A stretch of 54,503 nt of DNA from an uncultured Ruminococcus sp. GTDB taxonomy: Bacteria; Bacillota; Clostridia; Oscillospirales; Acutalibacteraceae. The stretch lies in the NCBI GenBank assembly GCA_902798365.1, contig CADBWP010000025.1:1-54503 (forward strand). The letters run 5' to 3'. This document shows positions 5,107 to 54,503 of this stretch, one piece after another. Each line of letters begins with the position of its first letter. The stretch's first letter is position 1. The position numbers were made by a program, and so were the translations under genes. Below the pieces are notes generated by a model. That model had not been told where the DNA came from and made no database searches. It worked only from the letters and a program-made list of their open reading frames with translations.

Positions 5107-7800
5107 ATGGCACAGGAAATGGAAAAATCCTACAATCCCTCGGGCTTTGAGGATGAGATCTATAAATTTTGGCTTGACGGCGGCTACTTCCGCGCCGAGC
5201 CCGACCCCGACAAAAAGCCCTACACCATCGTTATGCCGCCGCCCAACATCACGGGTCAGCTGCACATAGGTCACGCGCTTGACGAGACGCTTCAGGATAT
5301 TCTTATCCGCTACAAGCGCATGTCGGGCTACTGCGCGCTTTGGCTGCCCGGCACCGACCACGCGTCCATTGCCACCGAGGCAAAGATAGTTGAGGCTATG
5401 CGAAAAGAGGGCGTTACCAAGGAGGATCTGGGACGCGAAAAATTCCTTGAACGCGCATGGGAATGGAAGCGCGAGTACGGCGGAAGAATAACCAAGCAGC
5501 TGAGAAAGCTTGGCGTAAGCTGCGACTGGGAGCGCGAGCGCTTCACCATGGACGAGGGCTGCTCGGAGGCAGTTAAGGAGGTTTTTGTAAAGCTTTACAA
5601 CAAGGGGCTTATTTACCGCGGAAACCGCATGGTCAACTGGTGCCCCCATTGCCGCACCTCTATCTCGGACGCAGAGGTCGAGTATGAGGAGCAGCAGGGT
5701 CACTTCTGGCACCTGCTTTACAAGGTTAAGGAAACGGGCGAATACCTTGAAATAGCCACCACACGTCCCGAAACAATGCTGGGCGATACCGCCGTGGCGA
5801 TAAACAAGGATGACGAAAGATACGCTCACCTGCACGGCTGCCACGTTATTCTGCCCCTGCTTAACAAGGAGCTGCCCATCGTATGCGACGAGCACGCCGA
5901 CATGGAAAAGGGCACCGGCGTTGTAAAGATAACCCCTGCCCACGACCCCAACGACTTTGAGGTAGGTCTGCGCCACTCGCTGCCCATCGTGCGCTGCTTC
6001 ACCTATGACGGTCACATGACAGGCGCCGCCGACGTTGCCGCCTACAACGAGCTTGCCGCCAAGGGCAACCTTGCCGAGAACGAGCCCGAGGTGCTTGACT
6101 GCGGCAAATACGCCGGCATGGACACCATGCAGGCGCGCGAGGCCATACTTGAAGACCTTAAGGCTATAGGCGCTCTTAAGGAGGTCAAGGCTCACACCCA
6201 CGACGTGGGCACCTGCTACCGCTGCCACACCAACATAGAGCCTATGGTCAGCAAGCAATGGTTTGTAAAGATGAAGCCGCTTGCCGAGCCCGCTATTGAG
6301 GCTGTGCGCCAAAAGAGGACGCAGTTTATTCCCGAGCGTTTTGAAAAGGTTTATTTCCATTGGCTTGAAAACATAAAGGACTGGTGCATTTCGCGCCAGC
6401 TTTGGTGGGGTCACAGGATCCCCGTATATTACTGCGACGACTGCGGCGAGGTAATCGTCGGCAAAACCGCTCCCGACGCCTGCCCCAAGTGCGGCGGAAA
6501 GCGCCTTACCCCCGACGAGGACACCCTCGACACCTGGTTCAGCTCGGCCTTGTGGCCGTTCTCGACCCTTGGCTGGCCGGAGCAGACCGAGGACTTCAAA
6601 TACTTCTATCCCACCAGCACCCTTGTCACGGGCTATGACATCATCTTCTTCTGGGTTGTAAGAATGATATTCTCCGCCCTTGAGCAAACGGGCGACGTTC
6701 CGTTTGACACCGTGTTTATTCACGGAATAGTGCGCGACGAGCTGGGCAGAAAAATGTCAAAGTCGCTTGGCAACGGCGTCGATCCGCTCGAGGTCATAGA
6801 AAAATACGGCGCCGACGCTCTGCGCTTTCTGCTTGTCACCGGCAACTCGCCCGGAAACGACATCCGCTACTCCGAAAAGCGCATAGAGGCATGCTCGGGC
6901 TTTGCCAACAAGCTGTGGAACGCCTCGCGCTTTGTTCACATGAACATAGACGACCACGACGTTAAAAACGAGCTTCCCCAAACCCTCACCACCGAGGACA
7001 AGTGGATACTCTCGACCCTTAACACCGTGAGCAGGGAGGTCAACGAAAACCTCAACAAGTTCGAGCTGGGCATAGCCGTTCAAAAGGTTTATGAGTTTAT
7101 CTGGGACTGCTACTGCGACTGGTACATCGAGCTTGTAAAGGCTCGCCTGCAAAGCGAGGGCGACGACGCGCAAAACGCCCGTCAGGTGCTTGTATATGTG
7201 CTTGACCGTATTCTGCGCCTGCTTCATCCGTTTATGCCCTACATCACCGAGAGGATATGGCAGACCATTCCCCACGAGGGCGAGACCGTAATGCTTGCAG
7301 AGTACCCGACCTATGACGAGGCGCTGAACTTCCCCGAGGCGGCGGACGAGATGAGACGCATTATGGACGCCATCCGCGCCGTTCGCAACCGCAGAAGCGA
7401 GATGAACGTGCCTCCGTCGCGCAAGGCAAAAATATATATCGCCACCAAATTCACCAAAACCTTTGAGGACGGCAAGTCGTTTATGCAGAAGCTCGCCTCG
7501 GCAAGCAAGATCGAGGTTGCCGACAGCTTTGACATTGAGGGCGCGGTAACTGTTGTCACCGCCGACGCAAAGCTTTATATCCCGCTTGACGAGCTTGTGG
7601 ATAAGGAAGCCGAGCTAAAGCGCCTCACAAAGGAGCTGGAGCAGGTAGAGAAGCGCCTGGCTCAGTCCGAGGGCAAGCTGAACAATCAGGGCTTTGTGTC
7701 CAAGGCTCCCGCCGCCGTGGTTGAGGGCGTAAAGGCTCAGGCACAAAAGGAAAGAGAAAAAATCGCGCTTATCAAAGCCGCGATCGAGGCGTTTAAATAA
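5107..7800 (+). CDS. valS: Valyl-tRNA synthetase
   Basis: The 897-residue class I aminoacyl-tRNA synthetase charges tRNA-Val. The class I signatures are complete: HIGH within QLHIGHALDETLQD near residue 47 and KMSKSLGNGVDP near residue 540. Other family marks are MPPPNITG, the editing-domain stretch ATTRPETMLGDTAV, and a cysteine pair region around residues 440-465 (YYCDDCGE, CPKCGG) that probably binds zinc. The C-terminal 65 residues form the tRNA-binding coiled coil typical of ValS. The chosen ATG has AAGGAGCG seven bases upstream; a longer upstream frame would run through the terminator and promoter and is rejected. It is monocistronic, with its own promoter and terminator. Confidence 0.97.
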   Translation: MAQEMEKSYNPSGFEDEIYKFWLDGGYFRAEPDPDKKPYTIVMPPPNITGQLHIGHALDETLQDILIRYKRMSGYCALWLPGTDHASIATEAKIVEAMRKEGVTKEDLGREKFLERAWEWKREYGGRITKQLRKLGVSCDWERERFTMDEGCSEAVKEVFVKLYNKGLIYRGNRMVNWCPHCRTSISDAEVEYEEQQGHFWHLLYKVKETGEYLEIATTRPETMLGDTAVAINKDDERYAHLHGCHVILPLLNKELPIVCDEHADMEKGTGVVKITPAHDPNDFEVGLRHSLPIVRCFTYDGHMTGAADVAAYNELAAKGNLAENEPEVLDCGKYAGMDTMQAREAILEDLKAIGALKEVKAHTHDVGTCYRCHTNIEPMVSKQWFVKMKPLAEPAIEAVRQKRTQFIPERFEKVYFHWLENIKDWCISRQLWWGHRIPVYYCDDCGEVIVGKTAPDACPKCGGKRLTPDEDTLDTWFSSALWPFSTLGWPEQTEDFKYFYPTSTLVTGYDIIFFWVVRMIFSALEQTGDVPFDTVFIHGIVRDELGRKMSKSLGNGVDPLEVIEKYGADALRFLLVTGNSPGNDIRYSEKRIEACSGFANKLWNASRFVHMNIDDHDVKNELPQTLTTEDKWILSTLNTVSREVNENLNKFELGIAVQKVYEFIWDCYCDWYIELVKARLQSEGDDAQNARQVLVYVLDRILRLLHPFMPYITERIWQTIPHEGETVMLAEYPTYDEALNFPEAADEMRRIMDAIRAVRNRRSEMNVPPSRKAKIYIATKFTKTFEDGKSFMQKLASASKIEVADSFDIEGAVTVVTADAKLYIPLDELVDKEAELKRLTKELEQVEKRLAQSEGKLNNQGFVSKAPAAVVEGVKAQAQKEREKIALIKAAIEAFK

Positions 7801-7818
7801 TACTTACAATATAACATG

Positions 7819-7859
7819 ACGGTCGGAATGACAGCTATGCTGTCGCTCCGACCGTTTTT
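7819..7859 (+). terminator. Rho-independent terminator of valS
   Basis: Stem ACGGTCGGA / TCCGACCGT, with an inner GACAGC hairpin in the loop, followed by TTTTG. Confidence 0.85.
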
Positions 7860-7882
7860 GTTCGGAAATCTGTGAAATATCA

Positions 7883-7911
7883 TAGACAAGACCATATCGG
7901 CATGGTACAAT
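7883..7911 (+). promoter_or_regulatory. Promoter of the large LRR-dockerin gene
   Basis: TAGACA, 17 bases, TACAAT, with TGG before the -10 box. GGGAGG lies eight bases before the ATG at 7956. Confidence 0.65.
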
Positions 7912-7955
7912 TGTTTTGTAGAGTACTATAAAGCAGCAGGACGGGAGGATACACT

Positions 7956-10900
7956 ATGAAAAAGGTTTTATCCGTTATTTTGTCTTTGCTCACGGCTGTG
8001 AGCGCGTTTGCGGCAGCGCCTGTTTATGCCGGCGCGGCAGACATGCATTCCGTTCGGGAGCCTGACAGCGATCTTGCCGTGGAATCCGAAAGCTCGGTCG
8101 GCGCCATTTTGGGCGCGGCGGTCGAAGAAAACGAGAGCGCCGATATTCCGTCGGAAAGCATAACCGGCATAACTGTCGAAGGCAGGACGGCATTTGTAAC
8201 GCTTATGCACACCAAGCCGTGCATGGTCGCGGTGGGAATATATGATGAAACCAGCGATGAGCTGATTCAGACAGCAGTGATGCGCGATATTTCGGCGGAT
8301 GATGAAGCAGCCGCGCTCACGTTTGAAAACGGTCTCCCCGAGTATTTTTATTTGCGCGCGTTCATCCTTGACGAAAACTGCGCTCCGTTGGGAAAGCAAT
8401 ACGAAACAAGCCGCTACACCAAGGCTTATGAAGAATTTCTTGAAAAGACTGCCGCCGACTTTCCGCAGGAGAACGTGATAAACTTTGACGACAGCCAAAG
8501 CAACAATTTCGCGGTGTTTGACGGCAGTGTTAAAGAGGTATCGGCGGGCGGCGGTCAGATCACCGAAACCGACTGCGGCTGCGTATTTTCAAACGCGGAC
8601 GAAAGCGTAAAAAATCTCAGAGAGGGCGACATCTTTTACTACGATAACAACGGCGAGACCGAGATAGTCAAGGTCGGCGCGATCACCGTAAGCGGCGATA
8701 CCGTCACGATAACTTCAGCCGACGCGGAGATGGAGGAGGTCTTTGATTACGTAAAAATCGACGTGACCGCCTACGAAGCCGAACCCGATATGAGCGAAGC
8801 CGACGAGGGAGTGACGCTTGTCGAAAGCGATGAGGAGAACGAGCCGGTCGGCGCGTATGAGATGGACTGCGAGCTCTCGCGCAATTTCACCTTTGACATC
8901 GCAAGGGCGATGAAGGTCGGAGGCATCGAAATAAACGGTGCTAAGGCAGAGCTTGATATCACTACGACAATGCACTTCAGGCTGTACTACAGCGACAGCG
9001 TGCTGGAAACCGAGCTGTCGGACGGGATCGAGGGCGAGCTGGACGTTGAGCTGGGCGTTTCCGCAAAATTCACCATAAACCTTCCCAGGCTGACCTTCCC
9101 CACTCCCGTGGCAGGACTGACCATTGCGGTAAAACCCGCGTTTGAGACGGAGATATCGGCGGCGTTCCACGGCAAGGTGGATTTTGACGCGAAGCTCGGC
9201 TTCAAATACAACTCCGAAAACGGATTTACAAACACCTCTCAAAAGCCGCGGCTGGACGCTGAGGTGAACTTTGAGGGCAAGATATACGTCGGCTTCAAGC
9301 TGACCCCGAGTATTCAGGCGGCGTTCGGCGTGGTTGAGATCGGCGTTGAGATAAGCGTGGGAGCCGAGGGAACAGGTACGCGCGCGCTCACCTCCACCGA
9401 CACCAAGGATTCCGAACACATGTGCCGTTGGTGCATTGACGGCGTGATTAACGGCAAGGTGACGATCGAGGCGGAGCTGGCGGCAGGTCTGTGGAAGAAG
9501 TTCAGCTGGACAGCCTCGTCAAAGCTGCTCGACTGGGAAAAGGAGCTGTTTGATTTTTACTGTTCGTCTGACCTGGGCTTCGGCAAGGGACTTTGCCCCA
9601 ACCGTCAGGGAACGGAACCGCCTGCCGGCGACGAACCGTACAAACGCATGGATCTGGAATACAACGAAAAAGCGTATAACGCGAATTATGTGGTTAGCGG
9701 CGACAGAAAGCATATAGACGTATATATTACGGGCAGCGGGAACGTGTCAGACTCGAATTACTTCGGTTTGGGTAATTTTGTTGACGATTTTAACGCCGAA
9801 GTAAGTCAAAAAGCGGAAAGTCTGTATCCGTACGATTGGGAAAAACAGCGTGAATACTTTTACGCTCACGGAATTTGGGGCAATTACACCAATTCTCTTT
9901 ATATCAGCGGATTCAACGCCGTCAGCGCCACCACGTCGGAAGAAACGGACGTGCATATTTCGGGTCCGACAAAGGTCGTAAGCCTTGACAAATGCAAATC
10001 CATCAGCCTTCCCGATTCGGTAGAGGAACTGTACATATTTTCTATACAGGACACATCCTCGTTCCGCCTTCCGCCCAACATCAGGTACATAGGAGGCTTT
10101 TACAGCTGCGATTTCACACAGCTTACCATACCCTCATCGGCGGAGTATGTTGAAGGCTTCGGCAGCTGCCCCATAAGCAGGCTGACCATTATGCCGCCGG
10201 AAAAGCATCTGACGCTCAGCGGATTTTGGCAATGCCCGATAGAGGATCTCGTTATTCCTCAGGGCGTCAGTCTTTATCACTTCATGCCGGAACGATCCGC
10301 GATGAGCAGCATTGCGATACAGACGGATACATATGCCCTGCTGCGGTTTTGCAGCGAGCTGGAGGAGGCGCGGTTTATCAGCCCGCTGGAAACGGTAGGA
10401 GCCGAATGCTGCAACAACTGCAAAAATCTGAAAAGGGTGAGCTTTGAGCCGTCCGTAACGCGCATCGGAAATATGGCGTTCTATGACTCGGGCTTGGAGA
10501 GCGTCACCGTTCCCGGGAGCGTTAAAGAAATCGGATCGAGCGCGTTTTACAATTGCGATGAGCTGCGCGAGATAATCATTGAGGACGGCGTAAAGCAGAT
10601 CGATTATCAGGCATTTGCCGAATGTCACAACCTGGAGCGCGTCGTTCTGCCCGCGAGCCTGTCTTATCTTGACAGCACCGCTTTTGCCGGCTGCCCTCAG
10701 GGTATTGAGCTGGACTTTTGCGGCGAACCGTGGCAGTGGTGGAACATTACAGCGAAATACAAATTTATAGACGGCAGTTACGCTCCGTGGAGAATGCTTG
10801 ACCTCGAATTCGATTCTTCCATATTTATGAACTGTGTGATCTATCTCAACTCCGACGGCACAAGGCGGATTCCGCGCACGGACGATAACGGCCCGGTAGG

Positions 10901-11396
10901 CTCAGGCGCCGCGAACGGATACGCAAACGCGGAGTACCTTATAGCCGTTGAGGGCGACGAGAACGGACAGCTCGGCGGCGCGGTCACGGCTTTGGCGCAG
11001 GTGACCGCCGACGAAAACGGCAATATCGAGATACCCGACAGCATACAGGCAGGCGACGGCGAATTTCTCAATCTTTACGGAGCCTGCCGCCATCCATCGG
11101 CGCACCTGACCGGAGACGGACAGTATGTCTGCAACATTTGCGGCGAAAGCCTGCCCGCTGTTATCGACCTCGGAAGCAAATCAGAGGCGGCGATCGGCGA
11201 CGTAAACCTTGACGGGATCATTTCAATAACGGATGTGACCCTCATACAGCGATATATCGCGGAGTTTGAAATATTCACGGACGGGCAGCTTGCGGCGGCG
11301 GATACCGACGGCAGCGGCGAAGTGGATATCGACGACGTCACCCGCCTGCAAATGTATATTATGGAATATGGCGTTGCGCTTGAAAATCAGGAATAA
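7956..11396 (+). CDS. Large secreted protein with BspA-like leucine-rich repeats and C-terminal dockerin
   Basis: The 1146-residue protein starts with a signal peptide (MKKVLSVILSLLTAVSAF, cleavage probably near APVYA-GA). Residues about 40-300 are an acidic region of unknown fold, including an FDYVKIDVTAYEAEP segment. About 300-540 is a series of long alternating polar/nonpolar stretches, suggesting a beta-rich domain. About 650-925 holds irregular BspA/LRR_5-type repeats such as ESVTVPGSVKEIGSSAFYNC. A small CxxC motif (YVCNICGE, about 1060) precedes a type I dockerin (about 1077-1142) with two calcium loops, DVNLDGIISITD and DTDGSGEVDIDD, followed by VTLIQRYI and VTRLQMYI. The dockerin should anchor the protein to a cohesin on the cell surface. 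The LRR part suggests adhesion. It has its own promoter and terminator. Confidence 0.85.
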   Translation: MKKVLSVILSLLTAVSAFAAAPVYAGAADMHSVREPDSDLAVESESSVGAILGAAVEENESADIPSESITGITVEGRTAFVTLMHTKPCMVAVGIYDETSDELIQTAVMRDISADDEAAALTFENGLPEYFYLRAFILDENCAPLGKQYETSRYTKAYEEFLEKTAADFPQENVINFDDSQSNNFAVFDGSVKEVSAGGGQITETDCGCVFSNADESVKNLREGDIFYYDNNGETEIVKVGAITVSGDTVTITSADAEMEEVFDYVKIDVTAYEAEPDMSEADEGVTLVESDEENEPVGAYEMDCELSRNFTFDIARAMKVGGIEINGAKAELDITTTMHFRLYYSDSVLETELSDGIEGELDVELGVSAKFTINLPRLTFPTPVAGLTIAVKPAFETEISAAFHGKVDFDAKLGFKYNSENGFTNTSQKPRLDAEVNFEGKIYVGFKLTPSIQAAFGVVEIGVEISVGAEGTGTRALTSTDTKDSEHMCRWCIDGVINGKVTIEAELAAGLWKKFSWTASSKLLDWEKELFDFYCSSDLGFGKGLCPNRQGTEPPAGDEPYKRMDLEYNEKAYNANYVVSGDRKHIDVYITGSGNVSDSNYFGLGNFVDDFNAEVSQKAESLYPYDWEKQREYFYAHGIWGNYTNSLYISGFNAVSATTSEETDVHISGPTKVVSLDKCKSISLPDSVEELYIFSIQDTSSFRLPPNIRYIGGFYSCDFTQLTIPSSAEYVEGFGSCPISRLTIMPPEKHLTLSGFWQCPIEDLVIPQGVSLYHFMPERSAMSSIAIQTDTYALLRFCSELEEARFISPLETVGAECCNNCKNLKRVSFEPSVTRIGNMAFYDSGLESVTVPGSVKEIGSSAFYNCDELREIIIEDGVKQIDYQAFAECHNLERVVLPASLSYLDSTAFAGCPQGIELDFCGEPWQWWNITAKYKFIDGSYAPWRMLDLEFDSSIFMNCVIYLNSDGTRRIPRTDDNGPVGSGAANGYANAEYLIAVEGDENGQLGGAVTALAQVTADENGNIEIPDSIQAGDGEFLNLYGACRHPSAHLTGDGQYVCNICGESLPAVIDLGSKSEAAIGDVNLDGIISITDVTLIQRYIAEFEIFTDGQLAAADTDGSGEVDIDDVTRLQMYIMEYGVALENQE

Positions 11397-11402
11397 AATC
11401 GA

Positions 11403-11437
11403 CCCCTCCGGCACCTTTGAGTTTGCCGGAGGGGTTT
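11403..11437. terminator. Bidirectional terminator between the LRR-dockerin and GH31 genes
   Basis: Eleven-base stem CCCCTCCGGCA / TGCCGGAGGGG with a ten-base loop and TTT to the right. The two flanking genes converge on it. Confidence 0.8.
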
Positions 11438-11469
11438 GCCGTATTATATAAACTTCGGAGAGGTTAGTG

Positions 11470-13374
11470 TTACCCTATCCACTCAAGCTCCTTTGTGTCA
11501 AGCCTTGCGGTTCTGAGAGCCGGCATGCACAGGGGTATTTTTTTGCCCTTCTTTATGAACAGCGGCACCTCGTTGAGCGCCGTATCGACATAGTGCAGAC
11601 CCTTTGAAAGCTCCTGCTTTTTTACCCTTGTGCCGCTCAGGCGCACAAATGTCATGTCCTCGGGCAGATACACGGTTCTGCCGCCTGCGTTTTGCTCATA
11701 AACCGGGGCTATCATGCACTCGTCGCCCAGCATAAGCTGGGTTTCGCACTCGCGGGCTATCTTGTCATGCGGATAGTCAAACGACAGCGGACGGAACATC
11801 ATATCGCCCTGCTCCGCCGCGCTGCGGAAGGTGTTGTACAAATACGGAATGAGGCGGTAGCGAACCTCGATGATGTCGCGGAAGTCCTGCGGGTCTTCAA
11901 AGCTGTAGCACTCCTGGTCGCGCGTGCCCAGCGCCGAATGATTGCGCATAAGCGGAGTGAACACCCCCAGCGCCAGAAAACGCAGAACAAGGTCGCGCGT
12001 GGCGTTTTCGTTGAAGCCGCCCAGGTCCGCTCCGCAGTAAAGAAAGCCGCACATGTTTGCCGCAGGCAGCATTTTAAGGTTGAGCAGAATGTGCGACCAC
12101 CAGGAGTGATTGTCGCCGAACCATATGCCGGCGCAGCGGTGGGCGCCTATGTAAGACGCGCGCGAGAACATAAGAATCTTCTCGCTGCCGCAACTTTTGG
12201 CAAAATACTCCCCTGCCGCAATGGTCATATTCGCGCCGTACAGGTTGTGAACGCGCTGATGATTAACGGGCTCGCCGTTTATGATATGGTAAATGCTCTC
12301 ATAGTCCTCGCGGCGGTTGCCGAGCCCTGCAAAGGCGTCCTTGAGCCCGAAAAATTTGCCGAGGTCAAGGTTTTGCCCCTTAAGCTCTGCCGCCTTGTCA
12401 AGCGCCTGCTCAATGCCCCGGGCGGAGTAAAACAGCGCAGGCTCGTTCATGTCGTTCCAAAAGCCGTCTATGCCCATGTCGAGCAGCCCCCTGTACTTGG
12501 AGCCGAACCACTCGCGCACCTCGGGGCGCAGAAAATCGGGAAAACAGCATACGCCCGGCCAGACGCCGCCCTCAAAGTCCGTGCCGTCGGCGCATTTGCA
12601 AAAATAGCCCTTTTCCCTGCCCTCTTCAAAAACGGAATAGCCATCCTCTTTTTTAACGCCTGCGTCGATGATGGGGATAAGATGGATGTCCTGCCTGCGC
12701 TTGTCGGCGACGTATTCCTCAAAGCGCGGAAATGCCGCTTCGGACACGGTAAAGTCCTTGTAGGCATCCATGTAGTCTATGTCGAGATAAACGCAGTCGA
12801 GCGGAATGTTTTCGCGGTCATAACTCTCGATTACGCGATCCACCGCGGCGCTGTTGTGATAGCTCCAGCGGCTTTGCTGAAAGCCGAACGCCCAGAACGG
12901 CGGAATGTAGCTTTTGCCGATGGCGGCGCGGAACCGGCGCACCACCTCGCGCGGAGAACCGCCGGTTATGAGATAGATGTCAAGGTCTGTACCCTCTGCG
13001 GTTATTTTTATTTCGTCCCGACGGGTGTAGCCGATGTCCCAGGTTATTTTGGCAGGAAAGTCAACAAATATTCCCGTATTCGTTTCGCCCGAGATGATTA
13101 TAAAATTGTGAGCCGCGTACAGCGAACGCTTTGTTTCGGTGTGAAACGGGTCGTCGCTGCAATAGCTTTCGTATATCCACCCGCGCTTGTTTATGCCGCG
13201 CACGGTCTCGCCCAGACCATACACTATATCGTCCCTACTCATGGGAACTGTGATCTCAAATCTGCCGTCCGCAATGCGGGAGCTGAGCGGAAGCCTGTCG
13301 GCAGGAAGCGCAGGAAGCTCTGACACAACAGCTCCGGTAAAGACCGGGCTGCCGCTTGAATACTTTTGAATCAT
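11470..13374 (-). CDS. Glycoside hydrolase family 31 alpha-glucosidase
   Basis: The 634-residue protein is a GH31 enzyme that hydrolyses alpha-glucosidic bonds at the nonreducing end. The (beta/alpha)8 barrel begins near residue 150. LDIDYMDAYKDFTV (about 195) contributes to substrate binding. The catalytic nucleophile is the Asp of GFWNDMNEPA (about 310). The acid/base Asp lies in WFGDNHSWW (about 420). The N-terminal beta-sandwich is short (about 140 residues), and the C-terminal beta domains end in KELEWIG. No signal peptide is present, so it is cytoplasmic and probably acts on imported malto- or isomalto-oligosaccharides. GGAGG precedes the ATG. It is a single gene, divergent from asnB, with its own promoter at 13404-13432. 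Confidence 0.92.
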   Translation of the reverse strand: MIQKYSSGSPVFTGAVVSELPALPADRLPLSSRIADGRFEITVPMSRDDIVYGLGETVRGINKRGWIYESYCSDDPFHTETKRSLYAAHNFIIISGETNTGIFVDFPAKITWDIGYTRRDEIKITAEGTDLDIYLITGGSPREVVRRFRAAIGKSYIPPFWAFGFQQSRWSYHNSAAVDRVIESYDRENIPLDCVYLDIDYMDAYKDFTVSEAAFPRFEEYVADKRRQDIHLIPIIDAGVKKEDGYSVFEEGREKGYFCKCADGTDFEGGVWPGVCCFPDFLRPEVREWFGSKYRGLLDMGIDGFWNDMNEPALFYSARGIEQALDKAAELKGQNLDLGKFFGLKDAFAGLGNRREDYESIYHIINGEPVNHQRVHNLYGANMTIAAGEYFAKSCGSEKILMFSRASYIGAHRCAGIWFGDNHSWWSHILLNLKMLPAANMCGFLYCGADLGGFNENATRDLVLRFLALGVFTPLMRNHSALGTRDQECYSFEDPQDFRDIIEVRYRLIPYLYNTFRSAAEQGDMMFRPLSFDYPHDKIARECETQLMLGDECMIAPVYEQNAGGRTVYLPEDMTFVRLSGTRVKKQELSKGLHYVDTALNEVPLFIKKGKKIPLCMPALRTARLDTKELEWIG

Positions 13375-13403
13375 AGGTTCGCCCTCCGTTTGTTGTTACC
13401 TAC

Positions 13404-13432
13404 AGTATAATGCTTTTTGCTGCAATAATCAA
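13404..13432 (-). promoter_or_regulatory. Promoter of the GH31 gene
   Basis: Read leftward, TTGATT, 17 bases, TATACT, 29 bases from the ATG. It stands back to back with the asnB promoter, with 34 bases between the two -35 boxes. No obvious operator was seen. Confidence 0.7.
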
Positions 13433-13466
13433 TCACCCGGCAAAAGAAAAATCCTTTTCCTTATGG

Positions 13467-13495
13467 TTGAATTTGTCGCGGGAATATGATATAAT
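13467..13495 (+). promoter_or_regulatory. Promoter of asnB
   Basis: TTGAAT, 17 bases, TATAAT, with TGA directly before the -10 box (extended -10). The gene start is 45 bases downstream. Confidence 0.75.
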
Positions 13496-13540
13496 AAAAC
13501 AGTATATAATGATATTGACTCACGAAAGGGGTTTTTCAGT

Positions 13541-20217: not shown

Positions 20218-23200
20218 TTATGCCCTGAACTCAAAGATATACTCCGCAAGGTAACGCTGGATCTCGGTAGCGTCGCGGATGTCTATCTTTCCGTCGCCGT
20301 TGACGTCCGCCTGTTCAAACACCTTGGGATCGTTTATGTCGAACAGCGGCTCGCCGTCGTTGTCAAAGCCTGCAATGTACTGCTGCAGCAAGGTAACGTC
20401 CTTAACGGTCACGACGCCGTCGTTGTTTACGTCGCCTATCAGGAAGTCTATCTCAAGCTTTTCGATTACCTGAGGCTCAATAAGCCATTCGCCGCATACC
20501 GAGCAGCGCACGCCCATGGTAAGGCCTGTCTCGCGGTAGGTCGCGGGAACCTCGGGCGTTATCTCGTAGGTGTGATCCACGGTCGGGATAACCTCCTGAG
20601 CCACGATAACCTCGCCGCATACCGAGCAATGGCTGCCCTCGGTAAGTCCCGTTTCGGAGCAGGTCGCGGGACGACCCTCGTCAACAACGGGTGTGTGAGG
20701 AATGGTCGGGATTATCTCCTGAGCCACGATAACCTCGCCGCAAACCGAGCAATGGCTGCCCTCGGTAAGTCCGGTCTCGGAGCAGGTCGCGGGACGACCC
20801 TCGTCAATAACGGGTGTGTGGTCTGTTTTGGGAGCCGTGATAACGGGCTCTACAAATACAATTCCGCAGTATTCGCATACGGAATATGCGCTGTGACCCT
20901 CGTGCTGACAGTTGGCGTCCTCTGCAGGCACAATAACGGGCTTGTGGCCTGTTGCCGGAATAACCTGCTGTTCCTCGATTATCTCGCCGCAGATCGCGCA
21001 ATGCGAGCCTTGGGTATAGCCGTTTTCGGTGCAGGTGGCAGGATAACCCTCGTCGATCACAACATCATGCTCATGTGTGATGGTAACGGTAAAGGTCGCG
21101 CCCTGCTTGGTCACATAGTTAAAGTTCCTGAGGTCGAGCTGCAGCCTTACGGTCTGATAATCATCTTCCGTGTCAAAGGTGATGCTGTCGCCGTTGTAAT
21201 CCGCAGGCGAAACCACGCCGCTGCCCTCGAACGTGCCGCCGAAGTTGTGCGTCCACGCGCCGTCTATGGCAAATTTGACCTCAAGCCCATCTGTTTCGGG
21301 AACGTTAGTGTATTCTATTTCCCAAACGTCCTCGGCAACCTCGGTCATCAGGTTATCATCGGCGAAAGGTTTCCAATTAACGCCGTGGAGCCAGTTGCCG
21401 TCGCCGCTGCCGCCGTTGCCTACCGCATATACACTTTCGTACTCGAGCTCGGTTTTAAATGATACAAAGTCGCCGCTTACGGATACTATTGTAGTACTCG
21501 GATCAAAGATTACCGTAAAGTAGCCCGGAGCGGTAATGTCAAAGGGCACGTTGTTACCGGTTGCGCCGCCGTACCAGTCGCTGAAATCTACAACTACCTT
21601 GAGCTGTACATCCTCATACGCACTTGAAGCGTAATAGGTCTTGGTATATAATGCGCTGCCGTCCCAGTTCATCGAGTTGGCTTCATTGTTGCAATCCCAT
21701 GCCGTTCCGAACAGTTCTGCGTAGTTACCTGCTACGATAACAGAATCACAAGGTCCGGGAGCGGGTTCCGAGAACGGCTCTTCGGTAGTGGGCTCCACAG
21801 GCTCCATGGTGGGCTCCTCGGTAGTGGGCTCCACGGGCTCCATGGTGGGCTCCTCTGTAGGCTCTATGATGGGCTCGGTAGTTTCTTCTACGGGCGGTTC
21901 CGTTATAGGCTCGTCCTCGTCGATTATGGTGACGGTAAAGGTCGCGCCTGTTTTGCTTTCAAAGTCAAAGCCTCTCAGGTCGAGCTGCAATCTTACGGTC
22001 GGCGAATAATAATCGTAGGTGTCAAACGTGATGTTGTCGCCGTTATAAACCGCGGACGAAACAACGCCGTTGCCCCTGAACACGCCGCCGAAGTTGTCTG
22101 TCCATGCGCCGTCTATGGCAAATTTGACCTCAAGCCCGGCTGTTTCGGGAACGTTAGTGTATTCTATCTCCCAAACGTTGTCGGCTACCTCGGTCATCAG
22201 GTTGTCTTCATATGCGGGATCCCAGCTTACGCCGTTGATCCAGCTGCCGTTGCCCTCGCCGTTGCCGACAGCATAGACCTCGGAGTAATGGAAATCGGAT
22301 CTGTATGCCACATAGCTGCCGCTTACAGACACGATACCCGTGTCAGGATTAAAGATAACGGTAAAGTAGCCCGGAGCGGTAACATCAAAGGTGACGTTGT
22401 TGCCGTCCTTGTCGCCGAACCATTCATCTCCGTTTGCCACCGCCTTGAGCTGAATATCTCTGTATGCACGCGAGGCGAAGTACATCTTGGAATATACGCT
22501 GCCGTTCCACATCATTTGGTTGTCAATGTTTGTGCTGTCCCATGCCGTTCCGAACAGCTCCGCAGGATCGCCTGCCACTACAACATAGCTGTACGGTCCG
22601 TATCCGGGTCCCTCTGTTGCCGGCTCCGTGGGCTCCATGGTGGGTTCCTCGGTGGGCTCCCATGTTGACGGTTCTCCGTTTTCGATAATGGTAACGGTAA
22701 AGGTCGCGCCCTCCTTGGTTTCCAGATCAAAGTTTCTCAGGTCGAGCTGCAATATTAATGTCGCCGACTCATAATTATTGTAAAATGAAATGTTTTCGCC
22801 GTTATAAACCGCAGGCGAGGTAACGCCGCTGCCCTCGAACGTGCCGCCGAAGTTGTGCTTCCACGTACCGTCTATGGTGAATTTAACCTGAAAATTAAAC
22901 AGCTCGGGAGCCATTACATCTGTGTATTCTATCTCCCAAACATCCTCGGCAACCTCATGCATCAGGTTGTCCTCATAGTCGGTTACCCAGTTTGCACCCC
23001 AAAGCCAGTCGCCCTCGCCGTTGCCGACCGCATAGACCTCGAAGTAATCAAGCTCGCTCTTGAACATTACATAGTCGCCTTCTACACTTACTATGCCTGT
23101 TTTGGGGTCAAAAATTACCGTGAAGTCGCTGCTCTCTGTGACATCAAACATAACGTTATAGCCTTTTTCGTCGCCGAACCATTCATAATCGTTTGTCACC

Positions 23201-23634
23201 GCCATAAGCGATATATCCTCATACGAATGTGCTGCGAAGTAGGTTCTGGAATATACGCTGCCATTCCAGGTCATTTGGTTGAAATAGTAGCTGCCGTCCC
23301 ATATTTCACCGAACAGCTCTTCCGAATCACCTGCCACGATAACATAACTGTAGGGTTCGTTTTCGGGCTCTGCGGAAGCAGGCACCGTGGTTTCTTCTAC
23401 GGGCGGCTCGGTTTCCGGTTCGCCCTCATCGATTATTGTAACGGTAAAGGTAGCTCCCTCTTTGGTTGTATAGTCAAAGTTTCTCAGGTCGAGCTGAAGC
23501 CTTACGGTCTGATAATCATATTCCGTGTCAAAGGCGATGTCGTCGCCGTTATAAACTGCGGGCGATACAACGCCGCTGCCCTCGAACACGCCGCCGAAGT
23601 TGTGCGTCCACGCGCCGTCGATGCAGAATTTCAC
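20218..23634 (-). pseudogene. 3' segment of the giant X25-like/dockerin surface protein gene (frameshifted)
   Basis: The open frame has 1138 codons but no proper start: it opens on an internal GTG in the middle of a repeat module. It holds the end of a disrupted module, then three intact modules of about 270 residues. Each has an IVAG....ELFG..WD part followed by a YAVGN..WEIEYT..VKF part ending TFTVTI. The first half resembles X25 modules of pullulanases and ruminococcal starch-adherence proteins (from memory, not searched). Thr/Glu/Pro linkers separate modules. Four CxxC repeats of the type ATCSETGLTEGSHCSVCGE follow. The C-terminal dockerin has DVNNDGVVTVKD and DVNGDGKIDIRD loops, then DATEIQRYLAEY and FEFRA. 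With the frameshifts at 23631 and 24293 the dockerin is cut off from the signal peptide. Confidence 0.85.
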
Positions 23635-24296
23635 CTGACGTTCCGATTCCCTTGGGAGCTCGTTGTGTTGCCGACCGCATAGACCTCGGAATACTCCATA
23701 GCGGATCTGAACACAACATGGTCGCCTGTTACGGTCACCTTGCCTGTTTCGGGGTCAAAATATACGTTAAAGAAGCTTGGCTCGGTAACGTCAAATGTGA
23801 TGTTGTTGCCGGTTTGGTCGCCGTACCACTCTAATCCGTTTACCACGACCTTAAGCGATATGTTTTCATACGCCTGTGAAGCATAGAAGGCGTGTGCATA
23901 TCCGTCTTCTCCGCCGTACCACTCCAATTCATTACTCGTATTTGTGGAATCCCATGTCGTACCGAACAGCTCTGCCGGAGAGCCTGCCACGATGACGCTT
24001 TCAAAGGGTCCGGGCTCCATGGTGGAATCCTCTGTCGGCTCTATCGTAGGCTCTGCAAAGGTAACGGGCTCTGTGGGCTCCGCGTTCTCATCAATGATGG
24101 TAACGGTAAAGGTCGCGCCCTCTTTGGTTGTATAGTCAAAGTATCTCAGGTCGAGCTGGAGCTTTACGGTCTGAGAATCATATTCCGTGTCAAAAACGAT
24201 GTCGTCGCCGTTATAAACCGCGGGCGAAGCAACGCCGCTGCCCTCGAACACGCCGCCGAAGTTGTGCGTCCACGCGCCGTCGATGCAGAATTTCAC
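23631..24296 (-). pseudogene. Middle segment of the giant surface protein gene (frameshifted)
   Basis: The open frame of 221 codons begins on an internal GTG that overlaps the stop of the 5' segment (GTGA) and ends in the same way before the 3' segment. It contains the end of module 1 (VKFCIDGAWTHNFGG onward), a Glu/Pro/Thr linker and the first part of module 2 up to SEVYAVGN. There the frame runs into TTSSQGNRNVR and stops. Read in the next frame, the DNA at this point encodes NELPRESERQVKF, which matches the second half of the intact modules. About 30 residues of the module are missing at the junction. Independent translation is unlikely, although AAGGGA stands 13 bases before the GTG. Confidence 0.8.
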
Positions 24297-26140
24297 CTGA
24301 CGTTCCGATTCCCTTGGGAGCTCGTTGTGTCGCCCTCGCCGTTGCCGACTGCATAAACCTCGGAATAATCAAAATCGGTTCTGACCCTTACATAGTCGCC
24401 CTGTACTTCCACACCGCCTGTTTCCGGATCGAAATACACGTAAAAATAGCTCGGAGCGGTAACATCAAAGTTGATGTTGTTGCCGTATTCGTCGCCGTAC
24501 CAATCTAATCCGTTTACCACGACCTTAAGCGATATGTTTTCACGCGCAGAAGTGTAGTAGGACGCGGCGTATCCGTAGTATCCGCCGTACCATCCCATCT
24601 TATTATTCGTGTTCTCGGGATCCCATGTCGTGCCAAACAGCTCTGCCGGATAGCCTGCCACGATTACACTTTCAAAAGGCTCGGGATCCATGGTGGAATC
24701 CTCTGTCGGCTCTATCGTGGGTTCTGCAATGGTAACGGGCTCCGTGGGCTCCGCCTCGGTAGCAGGCTCCGTGGGCTCCGCTACGGTAGCAGGCTCCGTG
24801 GGCTCCGCTTCGGTAGCGGGCTCTGTGAACGGAGCTATGGTTTCATCCATGGGCTCTGTAGCAGGCTCCGTGGGCTCCGCTTCGGTAGCAGGCTCCGTGG
24901 GCTCAACGGTGGGCACAACGGTGGTCTCCTGTACAGGCTCTGCCTCGGTATAGTCTATTACCGTGAACGGATCTGCCGAACCGATGTAGCTTTCGCTTAC
25001 AGTATCCCTATATATTACGGGATACTGTGCATAGGGCTGCTCAATATCCTCGTCGCAGAAGGACAGGGATCTAACGTTGCAGCCGATAGTGGTATCGCCT
25101 GCGTCAGCGTCAAGCACCCTGAACCTTGCCTGAACAACGGTAACGGGCTCGCCGTTCTCGCCGTAGGCATAAGCGGCGGGGTCAACGGACGAGAAGTTGC
25201 CCACAATTCGTCCGGCGCCGTCGGGCATATTGACTGTGCCCGAGCCCAGACCCTGCTCTACCACGACCGGGAAGAAGTTGAGCGCTCCGCCTGCGGTTCT
25301 GTTGTAGTCTGCGTCCCACTCCAAAACCTCGGGGTCATAGGCGAGAGCGTTGATCTCGCAGTTGACAAGATACAAGCCGGGAGCGTTCAACAGGTATTTT
25401 ACGGTGACAAAGGAGTCGCCGTTTTCGTCCTGCTCAAGGTTTGTGCAGAACGCCTCGCCTGTTGCAAAATAGTTTGACTCGGCGGTGATGTGCAGCCCCT
25501 CAAAGGGCTCTGCGGAGTCATCCCACGCCTTGCCGAGACTGATGTTATTTTCCACGTCTATATCCGCATCGGCGCGAAGCTCGCCATCACTAAAAACAAT
25601 GAAATCCTCGTTTTCGTCGGCAAGTCCGTCTTCTCCGAGCCTTGAAACCTTAAGGCTTGAAAAGTCGATATCGACATTTGCCACGCCTTTGCCTAATGCC
25701 TTAAAGGTAACAACGATAAGCGCAACGGGGTCGCCGTCATCTGACAAGGGCGCAAGACCCAAATCGGAATAAGTGCCCTTTATGCCGTATTCGACACTTG
25801 TGAGATTCGTGTTTATCATTGCGCCCGGTGTGTTGGGCATAATGCCCAGCCTGCCGTTCTTCATGTTGTACGAATCGCTGTACTCCAAAAGGTCGCCGTC
25901 ATAGGTAAGCGTCCATTCGGTGTTAAGCAAGTCGCGGTCACAGTTGACATCTACCTCAACCGTGACAAAATTGTCGTTCGCCTCAAGCTCGTCGCTGTCG
26001 TAGTGAACGGTCGCGCCAAAACCGCTCGCATTTACGTTCAGCGTTAAGCCGCCCGCCGCCGAAGCGGTGATGGGCACCGCCGAGATCAGCAAAACGGCTG
26101 ACAGCAATACTGCCAGGGCTGATTTGATGAGTTTTTTCAT
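24293..26140 (-). CDS. 5' segment of the giant cohesin-like/X25-like surface protein
   Basis: The 615-residue frame starts with a signal peptide (MKKLIKSALAVLLSAVLL, cleavage near ITASA-AG). Two cohesin-like beta-sandwich domains follow, about 28-200 (FVTVEVDVNCDRDLLNTEW, then VALIVVTFKALG) and 205-385 (SFVTVKYLLNAPGLYLVN, then VTVVQARFRVLD). The second is closely similar to the domain of the protein at 53183-54100. A linker with five EPTEPAT-type units (about 400-490) leads into X25-like module 1, which breaks off at the frameshift with GNGEGD-TTSSQGNRNVR. AAGGAGG precedes the ATG. If the frameshift is real, a secreted protein with two cohesin-like domains but no dockerin would be made. Confidence 0.8.
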   Translation of the reverse strand: MKKLIKSALAVLLSAVLLISAVPITASAAGGLTLNVNASGFGATVHYDSDELEANDNFVTVEVDVNCDRDLLNTEWTLTYDGDLLEYSDSYNMKNGRLGIMPNTPGAMINTNLTSVEYGIKGTYSDLGLAPLSDDGDPVALIVVTFKALGKGVANVDIDFSSLKVSRLGEDGLADENEDFIVFSDGELRADADIDVENNISLGKAWDDSAEPFEGLHITAESNYFATGEAFCTNLEQDENGDSFVTVKYLLNAPGLYLVNCEINALAYDPEVLEWDADYNRTAGGALNFFPVVVEQGLGSGTVNMPDGAGRIVGNFSSVDPAAYAYGENGEPVTVVQARFRVLDADAGDTTIGCNVRSLSFCDEDIEQPYAQYPVIYRDTVSESYIGSADPFTVIDYTEAEPVQETTVVPTVEPTEPATEAEPTEPATEPMDETIAPFTEPATEAEPTEPATVAEPTEPATEAEPTEPVTIAEPTIEPTEDSTMDPEPFESVIVAGYPAELFGTTWDPENTNNKMGWYGGYYGYAASYYTSARENISLKVVVNGLDWYGDEYGNNINFDVTAPSYFYVYFDPETGGVEVQGDYVRVRTDFDYSEVYAVGNGEGDTTSSQGNRNVR

Positions 26141-29921: not shown

Positions 29922-29936
29922 AGTCAGTCTCCTTTT

Positions 29937-30060
29937 AGGCAATACCGCATAATTCAGGTGTGCGGATTGCACAGTAAGATTTTTCGTCAGGTTGTACAAA
30001 TAAATCGAGGTAAGGCTGTCGCCTTGCCGACCGTGCGCCTTGAATTGTGCGGTGTTGCCT
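29937..30060. mobile_element. MITE-like element R1, copy 2 (internal deletion)
   Basis: The element runs from AGGCAATACC to GGTGTTGCCT, 124 bp, shorter than the 160-163 bp of copies 3 and 4 because the part after GCCTTGCCGA is missing. TT flanks both ends. It sits between two leftward dockerin genes: directly behind the stop of one and six bases before the AAGGAG of the other. Confidence 0.8.
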
Positions 30061-51853: not shown

Positions 51854-51882
51854 TGCCGACTTTTGGATCAATAGCGGGTTTA

Positions 51883-52042
51883 AGGCAATACCGCATAATT
51901 CAGGTGTGCGGATTGCACAGTAAGATTTTTCGTCAGGTTGTACAAATAAATCGAGGTAAGGCTGTCGCCTTGCCGATTTTTGGGCAAGCTGACGGAACAA
52001 TATTCAAGCAAGCCGTGCGCCTTGAATTGTGCGGTGTTGCCT
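51883..52042. mobile_element. MITE-like element R1, copy 4 (160 bp)
   Basis: The same ends as copy 3 (AGGCAATACCGCATAATTCA and TGAATTGTGCGGTGTTGCCT) with TA on both sides. Its right end is three bases from the -35 box of the glycosyltransferase promoter and its left end 29 bases from the -35 box of the AsnB-like gene. Confidence 0.85.
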
Positions 52043-52997: not shown

Positions 52998-53182
52998 CTG
53001 CGACCCGCCGTTGCAGGAAGGTTTTGTCAATGCCTACCTTTCAAAAGGCGGAGAAAGCGTCCACCGACGCAGGCGGAGAAAGCGTCCACCGACGCAGGCG
53101 GAGAAAGCGTCCACCGACGCAGGCGGAGAAAGCGTCCACCGACGGCGTCCACCGACGCAGGCGGAGAAAGCGTCCACTGACG
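52998..53182. repeat. 25-bp minisatellite and flanking module (R4)
   Basis: After CGACCCGCCGTTGCAGGAAG and TTTCAAAAGGC comes a unit GGCGGAGAAAGCGTCCACCG plus ACGCA, 25 bp, starting at 53047, 53072, 53097 and 53122; the fourth is cut short and a fifth ends at 53182. It stops one base before the stop codon of the leftward dockerin gene. The same module lies in reverse orientation behind 54228. Confidence 0.85.
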
Positions 53183-54100
53183 CTATTCCATAAACTCAGA
53201 TATGAACTCTGCAATGAAGCGCTGGATCTCGGTCACGTCGCGGATATTGATGATTCCGTCACGATAAACGTCCATAATATCAAACACCTTGGGATCCTCA
53301 AGGTCGTAAAGCGGATTGCCGTCAGCGTCGGTGAACTCCGTGATAACCTTCTGGATCTCGGTGGCGTCGTTTATGTCGATGTCGCTGTCGCCGTTTACGT
53401 CGCCTCTTTCGGACTCGCCGATGGGCAGCGTCTGGCCTTCGGGCTCAATAACGGTATAGGCGGTGATCGAGTCGAGCACCTCCTGATTTATGATCTGGTT
53501 GCGAATGGGGCCGTATTCAACAAGCGGCGGATCGGTGTTTTCGTTGCACATGCCTATGGATTCCATGCGGCAGTTGATGACTGTCTCGCCTGCGTTTTTG
53601 TCAAGCACCTTGAACCTCACCGTAATAAAGGTGACGGGTGTGTTGTCGGCATAGTAGGCGTACATGGGCGAGCTGATGTTTGTAAAGTTGCCTATAACTC
53701 TGCCCGGTGCCGTTATGTTCGTCATGCCCGCGCCTGCCATCTGCTCAACGGAGCCCGAAAACAGGTTGAACATATTGGTGCGGCCTATCTTTACCATGTT
53801 GTATTCCTTTTTCATTTCGAGCACCGCGGGATCCCAGGTGATCTCGTCGATGTCACAGTTTACCACGCGGCTGCCCTCGGCGTAAAGCATGTACTTCACC
53901 GTGATGAAGCTGTCGCCGTTATCGTCCTCTTCAAGCGTGTAGTAGTTTGCCTTGGCGCTGCCGAAGATGTTAGAGGTGGTGACAATGCGCAGGGCAGGCT
54001 GAGTTTTGGCGGAAGCGACAAACGGCACGGCTGCCATAGCGGCGCAGAGCACGGCAACGGTCAACAGGGCTGCAAGCGATTTTTTAAATAACTTTTTCAT
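53183..54100 (-). CDS. Secreted cohesin-like/dockerin protein
   Basis: The 305-residue protein has a signal peptide (MKKLFKKSLAALLTVAVLCA, cleavage near VASA-KT). A cohesin-like domain follows (about 32-215): SFITVKYMLYAEGSRVVNCD, then TWDPAVLEMKKEYNMV, and FITVRFKVLDKNAGETVINC. It is closely related to the second cohesin-like domain of the giant protein at 24293-26140. The dockerin (about 230-300) has DVNGDSDIDIND with ATEIQKVI and a second loop DVYRDGIINIRD with VTEIQRFIAEF. It is thus a compact adaptor-type protein. GGAGG precedes the ATG; the stop TAG touches a minisatellite. Confidence 0.85.
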   Translation of the reverse strand: MKKLFKKSLAALLTVAVLCAAMAAVPFVASAKTQPALRIVTTSNIFGSAKANYYTLEEDDNGDSFITVKYMLYAEGSRVVNCDIDEITWDPAVLEMKKEYNMVKIGRTNMFNLFSGSVEQMAGAGMTNITAPGRVIGNFTNISSPMYAYYADNTPVTFITVRFKVLDKNAGETVINCRMESIGMCNENTDPPLVEYGPIRNQIINQEVLDSITAYTVIEPEGQTLPIGESERGDVNGDSDIDINDATEIQKVITEFTDADGNPLYDLEDPKVFDIMDVYRDGIINIRDVTEIQRFIAEFISEFME

Positions 54101-54176
54101 GGTATCCTCCGCGACAGAGCAGGCAGATTTTCGCCGCGTCTGTCCAATAAAAGATTTGATGTATCGGTATGATTTG

Positions 54177-54205
54177 ATTATACCACATCACGGCCGCATT
54201 TGCAA
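54177..54205 (-). promoter_or_regulatory. Promoter of the cohesin-like/dockerin gene
   Basis: Read leftward, TTGCAA, 17 bases, TATAAT with TGG before the -10 box. The TTTTTTCGGGTTGC above it recalls TTTTTGGATTGC in two other dockerin-family promoters. Confidence 0.75.
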
Positions 54206-54227
54206 CCCGAAAAAAGCAAAAAAATCA

Positions 54228-54503
54228 CACCGGTGGGGCGCCGGTGGACGCTTTCTCCGCCTTTTGAAAGGTCGGCATTAACAAAGCCTTCCTGCAACGG
54301 CGGGTCGGAACGCGGGCGAACGTTTCCGATAATCGTAGTGACAGCCCCTGCGGCTGCGCCGGTGGGCGCTTTCTCCGCCTGCGCCGGTGGGCGCTTTCTC
54401 CGCCTTTGGAAAGGTTAGTATTAACAAAGCCTTTCTGCAACGGCGGGGCGCCGGTGGGCGCTTTTTCCGCCTTTGGAAAGGTTAGTATTAACAAAGCTTT
54501 TTC
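54228..54503. repeat. Inverted, multiplied copies of module R4 at the window end
   Basis: Three copies of a unit that reads GCGCCGGTGGGCGCTTTCTC, CGCCTTTGGAAAGG, ATTAACAAAGCC, CTGCAACGGCGGG start near 54236, 54375 and 54448; the last runs off the window. They are the reverse complement of 52998-53060. No gene was seen here. Confidence 0.8.

Follow-up and report, generated by a model that had tools for sequence, protein, structure and literature searches.

The closest described counterpart of the protein considered here is the tandem X25 module of the Ruminococcus bromii amylosome (Sca5X25-2/Sas20d2; PDB 7rpy), which in the relevant passages of PMC9112005 is a clamshell-type structure holding one maltotriose between its two lobes. 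The window, by which we mean the whole stretch of 54,503 nt analysed here, from an uncultured Ruminococcus sp., encodes a protein in which each intact module is likewise a pair of such domains, X25a and X25b. The architecture differs: in the same passages of PMC9112005 Sca5 has two X25 modules, two cohesins and a sortase sequence, whereas the window protein consists of five pairs in a row and a dockerin at the C-terminus. By its likeness to the Sca5/Sas20 modules it looks like a putative starch-binding protein. Its gene lies on the minus strand, from 26140 to 20218, and appears in three frames, with cuts at 24293 and 23631:

24293..26140, minus strand: first frame (615 aa) with a start that resembles a signal peptide (by eye), two weakly cohesin-like domains, a Thr/Pro/Glu linker and X25a of module 1
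24383..24670, minus strand: X25a of module 1, intact (profile)
23631..24296, minus strand: second frame (221 aa) with the truncated X25b of module 1, a linker and the X25a of module 2
24090..24323, minus strand: X25b of module 1, profile positions 45-123 only (profile)
23706..23999, minus strand: X25a of module 2, intact (profile)
20218..23634, minus strand: third frame (1138 aa) with the truncated X25b of module 2, followed by the intact modules 3-5, a Cys-rich repeat region and the dockerin
23428..23661, minus strand: X25b of module 2, profile positions 45-123 only (profile)
22681..23349, minus strand: module 3, X25a + X25b, intact (profile)
21919..22590, minus strand: module 4, X25a + X25b, intact (profile)
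21073..21747, minus strand: module 5, X25a + X25b, intact; matches PDB 7rpy (profile and PDB sequence match)

The five modules, each a pair of X25-type domains, were recognised by profile search, with a Pfam score of 31.7 bits for X25 (X25_BaPul_like; cut-off 27). With modules 4-5 as query, module 5 matches residues 13-251 of 7rpy, that is both lobes, at E 1.8e-28. The C-terminal type I dockerin is clear (Pfam Dockerin_1, 46.6 bits, cut-off 22.9). For the two N-terminal domains the label "cohesin-like" of the initial annotation is a weak one: they stay below the Pfam Cohesin cut-off (15.5 versus 24.1 bits), and a sequence search of the PDB with them gave no match at E 0.1. Contig C17 of the same draft genome (positions 6000-13500) holds an open frame of 1406 residues, several domains of which resemble those at the beginning of the window protein; its C-terminus we take, from the motif, to be of the sortase type. 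Short tandem repeats with a GGCGGAGAAAGCG-type unit occupy positions 53045-54503 of the window, and related stretches occur in contig C30.

As the initial annotation had it, the frames stop at 24293 and 23631, each time after TTSSQGNRNVR, and the following frame carries NELPRESERQVKF. The distance from the GN codon to the QV/EV codon is 41 bases in module 1 and 29 in module 2, compared with 129, 129 and 132 in modules 3-5. This amounts to 88-91 missing bases in module 1 and 100-103 in module 2, or about 29-34 residues of X25b each, in good agreement with the loss of about 30 residues stated before; the X25b profile, 123 positions long, is matched only from position 45 onwards in each broken module. 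The absence of the 12 bases coding for GEGD from one copy was likewise reproduced and concerns the second copy. A 37-base pattern of the junction, allowing up to 3 mismatches, matches twice in the window, where 0.00 matches are expected; chance as the source of two such similar junctions is excluded.

Each downstream frame opens with a GTG that overlaps the upstream TGA (overlap GTGA), an arrangement that could be read as a designed coupling or a frameshift site giving separate products. However, the downstream products would have no signal peptide, either frame leaves the fold short by about 30 residues, no classical slippery heptamer is seen in the overlap when read by eye, and the arrangement occurs in none of 49 pairs examined in relatives. 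On these four points we rejected a programmed frameshift or coupled reading, which we regard as next to impossible.

The breaks stand in a peculiar relation to a stretch of exactly 101 identical bases (23568-23668 and 24230-24330, spacing 662). Some 100 identical bases had been described as lying around the breaks; length and spacing hold, but the block in fact starts at the breaks, with 2 of its 101 bases upstream of the joint as placed in our analysis:

24230..24328, minus strand: 99-base block, first copy, from the joint (24329/24328) to the divergence of modules 1 and 2; 24329-24330 are 2 further matching bases
23568..23666, minus strand: 99-base block, second copy, from the joint (23667/23666); 23667-23668 are 2 further matching bases

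In gene orientation GGCG precedes in one copy and GGCA in the other, followed by the shared AC; starting at the joint behind this AC, modules 1 and 2 stay identical for 99 bases and then diverge. The spacing of 662 bases could suggest that a whole broken unit was duplicated in tandem, the more so as modules 1 and 2 are mutually closest of all five in X25a (78.5% DNA identity). Yet an identity of 78.5% in X25a and of 100% in the block cannot be fitted by a single date, and the X25a domains of these two modules diverged while still coding (dN/dS 0.38). Such a duplication is therefore very improbable. The idea that recombination between the blocks could switch forms of the protein also fails, as a 662-base deletion leaves one joint and a stop codon: 662 bases are 220 codons plus 2 bases and one joint is left, therefore recombination cannot restore the frame.

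Gene conversion, another of the causes proposed initially, deserves closer attention. Here the breaks would be real: about 90 bases were lost out of frame in one module and a short tract with the lesion was converted into its neighbour, leaving a recent pseudogene or a truncated secreted protein. The X25b tails are indeed more alike between modules than the X25a domains (dS 0.34-0.59 versus 0.51-1.44), as would be seen under ongoing conversion, and the block looks recently copied, with 0 of 22 codons changed in its coding part compared with 12 of 47 just behind it (Fisher p 0.007). These unchanged codons can be explained by recent conversion, but also by the sharing of an assembly node, since a branch node needs at least 99 identical bases. 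The ends of a converted tract should be independent of assembly parameters; here, conversion would need to have begun at the lesion in each of the two copies and stopped 99 bases further on, which is the node length of this assembly.

The window comprises the whole of C25, one of the 74 contigs of a draft with a total length of 2.03 Mb and a completeness of 86%. We infer that this draft is a metagenome bin, and any statement on the identity of its assembler is likewise indirect. Among the contigs and contig ends examined, fifteen exact matches of exactly 99 bases touch at least one contig end (13 in a slightly different set), four of the 15 being plain end-to-end overlaps; therefore we read 99 as the length of the de Bruijn node (k-mer). 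Contig ends are also touched by repeats of other lengths, 29 with 82-98 bases and a single one with 100, and there are eight end overlaps of 28-33 bases, in a count from which 36 "overlaps" of 300 between fully masked contigs were left out. Within the 689,537 bases of the draft that were compared, including 9,839 N, exact repeats do not go beyond 102 bases. This set covers contigs 26-74 (whole or their first 20 kb), the window and parts of C20 and C17, out of 2,032,059 bases, and 9,677 of its N lie within four fully masked contigs. The repeats of at least 100 bases in it measure 102, 101, 100, 100 and 100, that is 99 plus 1-3. In 800 kb of a complete, single-contig genome of the same genus we counted 39 exact repeats of at least 99 bases, 36 of them above 102. 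The relative thus has many repeats beyond 102 bases and the examined part of the draft none, therefore the sharp ceiling is a property of this assembly. That no more than three of the 39 fall at 99-102 also speaks against conversion.

Errors of a related kind have been described for short-read metagenome-assembled genomes. The passages of Chen et al. 2020 (PMC7111523) that bear on this name perfect overlaps of scaffold ends set by the k-mer, more precisely by the largest k-mer, N's inserted despite an overlap (an error described for IDBA-UD and CLC), wrong repeat numbers, and local errors, which are suspected to feature prominently in IDBA-UD. The present case differs from those passages in that a 99-base node is printed twice, at joints without N's, within one gene. 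Five short N runs are found in the contigs examined (5, 20, 42, 60 and 35 bases), two of which have duplicated flanks (8 and 25 bases, the latter in C61 and inside a dispersed repeat); since N's can also stand for masked stretches, these are no more than suggestive of scaffolding.

We are thus highly confident that both breaks are false joints, made in the scaffolding of a short-read assembly, where a 99-base node was glued to a preceding piece without N's. Of the three causes considered initially, the assembly fault is retained, although as ends glued at a node and not as a plain collapse of the array, while gene conversion and duplication are not. The length of the repeat equals the k-mer overlap of the assembly, 99 plus 2 bases. 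Modules 1 and 2 would truly share at least 99 identical bases, which would form a branch node in the de Bruijn graph. The pieces leaving this node would each begin with the same 99 bases, a contig starting one node length before the paths differ. If the scaffolder then ordered the pieces and set the start of the node directly against the preceding piece with no N's between them, about 88-103 bases would be lost and the frame shifted. The outcome would be a 99-base block plus a chance match, here of 2 bases, once per joint, with the preceding sequence gone. Presumably no read spans either joint. A pure de Bruijn path needs a read for each junction k-mer, therefore the fault must sit in a later joining step, whose working we can only deduce. 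The last 21 and 22 bases of the two upstream pieces in the window recur elsewhere in the examined sequence. A rule by which such ends reflect the smallest k was considered and dropped, as the corresponding values are 21 and 22 in C25 but 11 in C40 and 33-38 in C50.

The same shape of misjoin is seen at two further places. Three coding repeats of at least 100 bases within one contig were found (in C25, C50 and C40), and each is edged by a non-homologous joint in a repeat-array gene. The block in C50 has 102 bases (99 + 3) and ends at a joint, near 12586, that lacks 75 bases present in the other copy. The block in C40 (region 546-646) has 100 bases (99 + 1) and at the same time makes up the contig's own end; it begins at a joint, near 646, where the frame of the array gene, putatively leucine-rich-repeat-like by its motif, breaks. 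Under gene conversion, a like geometry at these two other coding repeats would have to be due to chance. The gene concerned in C50 (11703-14602) is a dockerin gene of Cys-rich, TCTE-type repeats; besides the joint at the 102-base repeat it carries a frame break near 12350. The two remaining 100-base repeats are copies of a dispersed repeat, about 95-100 bases long, which occurs several times in the draft, at 29932-30031 and 51878-51975 of the window and in other contigs, some of which end inside it.

Another gene with an X25 pair, at C20:79700-80168, is broken in frame near 79910, not far from where its contig ends. C20 and the end of C44 have an overlap of exactly 99 bases, and this gene is split over both contigs. 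At the lesion near 79910 and at the frame break near 12350 in C50, the 99-base sign is absent. These further breaks in an X25 gene and in a Cys-rich repeat gene of the same draft are a point in favour of real lesions. The joints would then be real DNA, with an out-of-frame deletion copied by conversion in an array of starch-binding modules and several array genes of this lineage breaking down together. Taking the geometry of the joints into account, we consider this unlikely. False joining at the node gives no account of the lesions in C20 and near 12350 in C50, and perhaps none of two possible frame changes in ordinary-looking genes, C36:834 and C71:501. Some of these lesions may be real.

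Frame changes are rare in ordinary genes of this draft. By tblastn with the proteins of the complete genome of the same genus, no frame change was found in 92 usable proteins, and in the reverse direction, with the draft's own proteins against that genome, none in 82. General sequencing error was therefore set aside as an explanation, its rate being low, though not zero. A looser scan of the draft against itself listed 22 candidate sites, several of them short repeats; among them C35:18615 lies at the edge of a 100-base dispersed repeat and C40:18513 is an N gap. Starting from the relative's proteins the looser scan gave five sites, including the breaks in C25 and C20 as well as C36:834 and C71:501. 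The complete genome against itself gave no site and the draft's proteins against the complete genome gave one.

No parallel to the junctions was found among the relatives examined. A 33-base pattern of the junction with up to 3 mismatches occurs in one of 161 genomes of the genus, namely twice in the own genome. Among distinct X25a-X25b pairs, none of the 49 in relatives changes frame, compared with three of eight here (Fisher p 0.0019), which speaks against real breaks, the third being the pair in C20, without the 99-base sign. The 49 pairs were drawn from 117 loci, which are best hits or stretches of the genome G013 and of one complete genome, a choice that does not span all modules of the 161 genomes. 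The count of three in eight was entered by hand from the profile result and omits an X25b that lies at the beginning of C65 as well as the half of the C20 gene located on C44. A scan of genome contigs that used the 615-aa protein yielded 14 matches to the pattern, none of them a relative, in a set possibly without the own genome; a DNA search in 59 genomes (the own one and 58 relatives) gave matches in ten, the own included.

The modules themselves carry the marks of selection. Between modules dN/dS is 0.18-0.45, for modules 1 and 2 in particular 0.38 in X25a and 0.28 in the X25b tail, and the frame stays open for 1138 residues beyond the second break. Therefore, selection has acted on this gene for most of its history. 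These values and the long open frame fit a gene whose frame was whole until recently and count in favour of false joints. A truncated secreted form of the protein, as suggested in the initial annotation, finds no support here, since it presumes that the break is real.

If the breaks were real, they would represent a lesion spread by conversion in a protein of the amylosome type. The false joints favoured here point to a general test: where a lesion is duplicated and the tract has the length of the contig-end overlap, a glued k-mer node should be the first suspect. In drafts of this kind, caution is needed with pseudogenes, phase variation and gene conversion in surface proteins made of repeat arrays. 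In its true form the gene probably codes for five complete Sca5/Sas20-type X25 pairs and a dockerin, and judged from its domains the protein looks like an ordinary relative of the amylosome starch-binding proteins.
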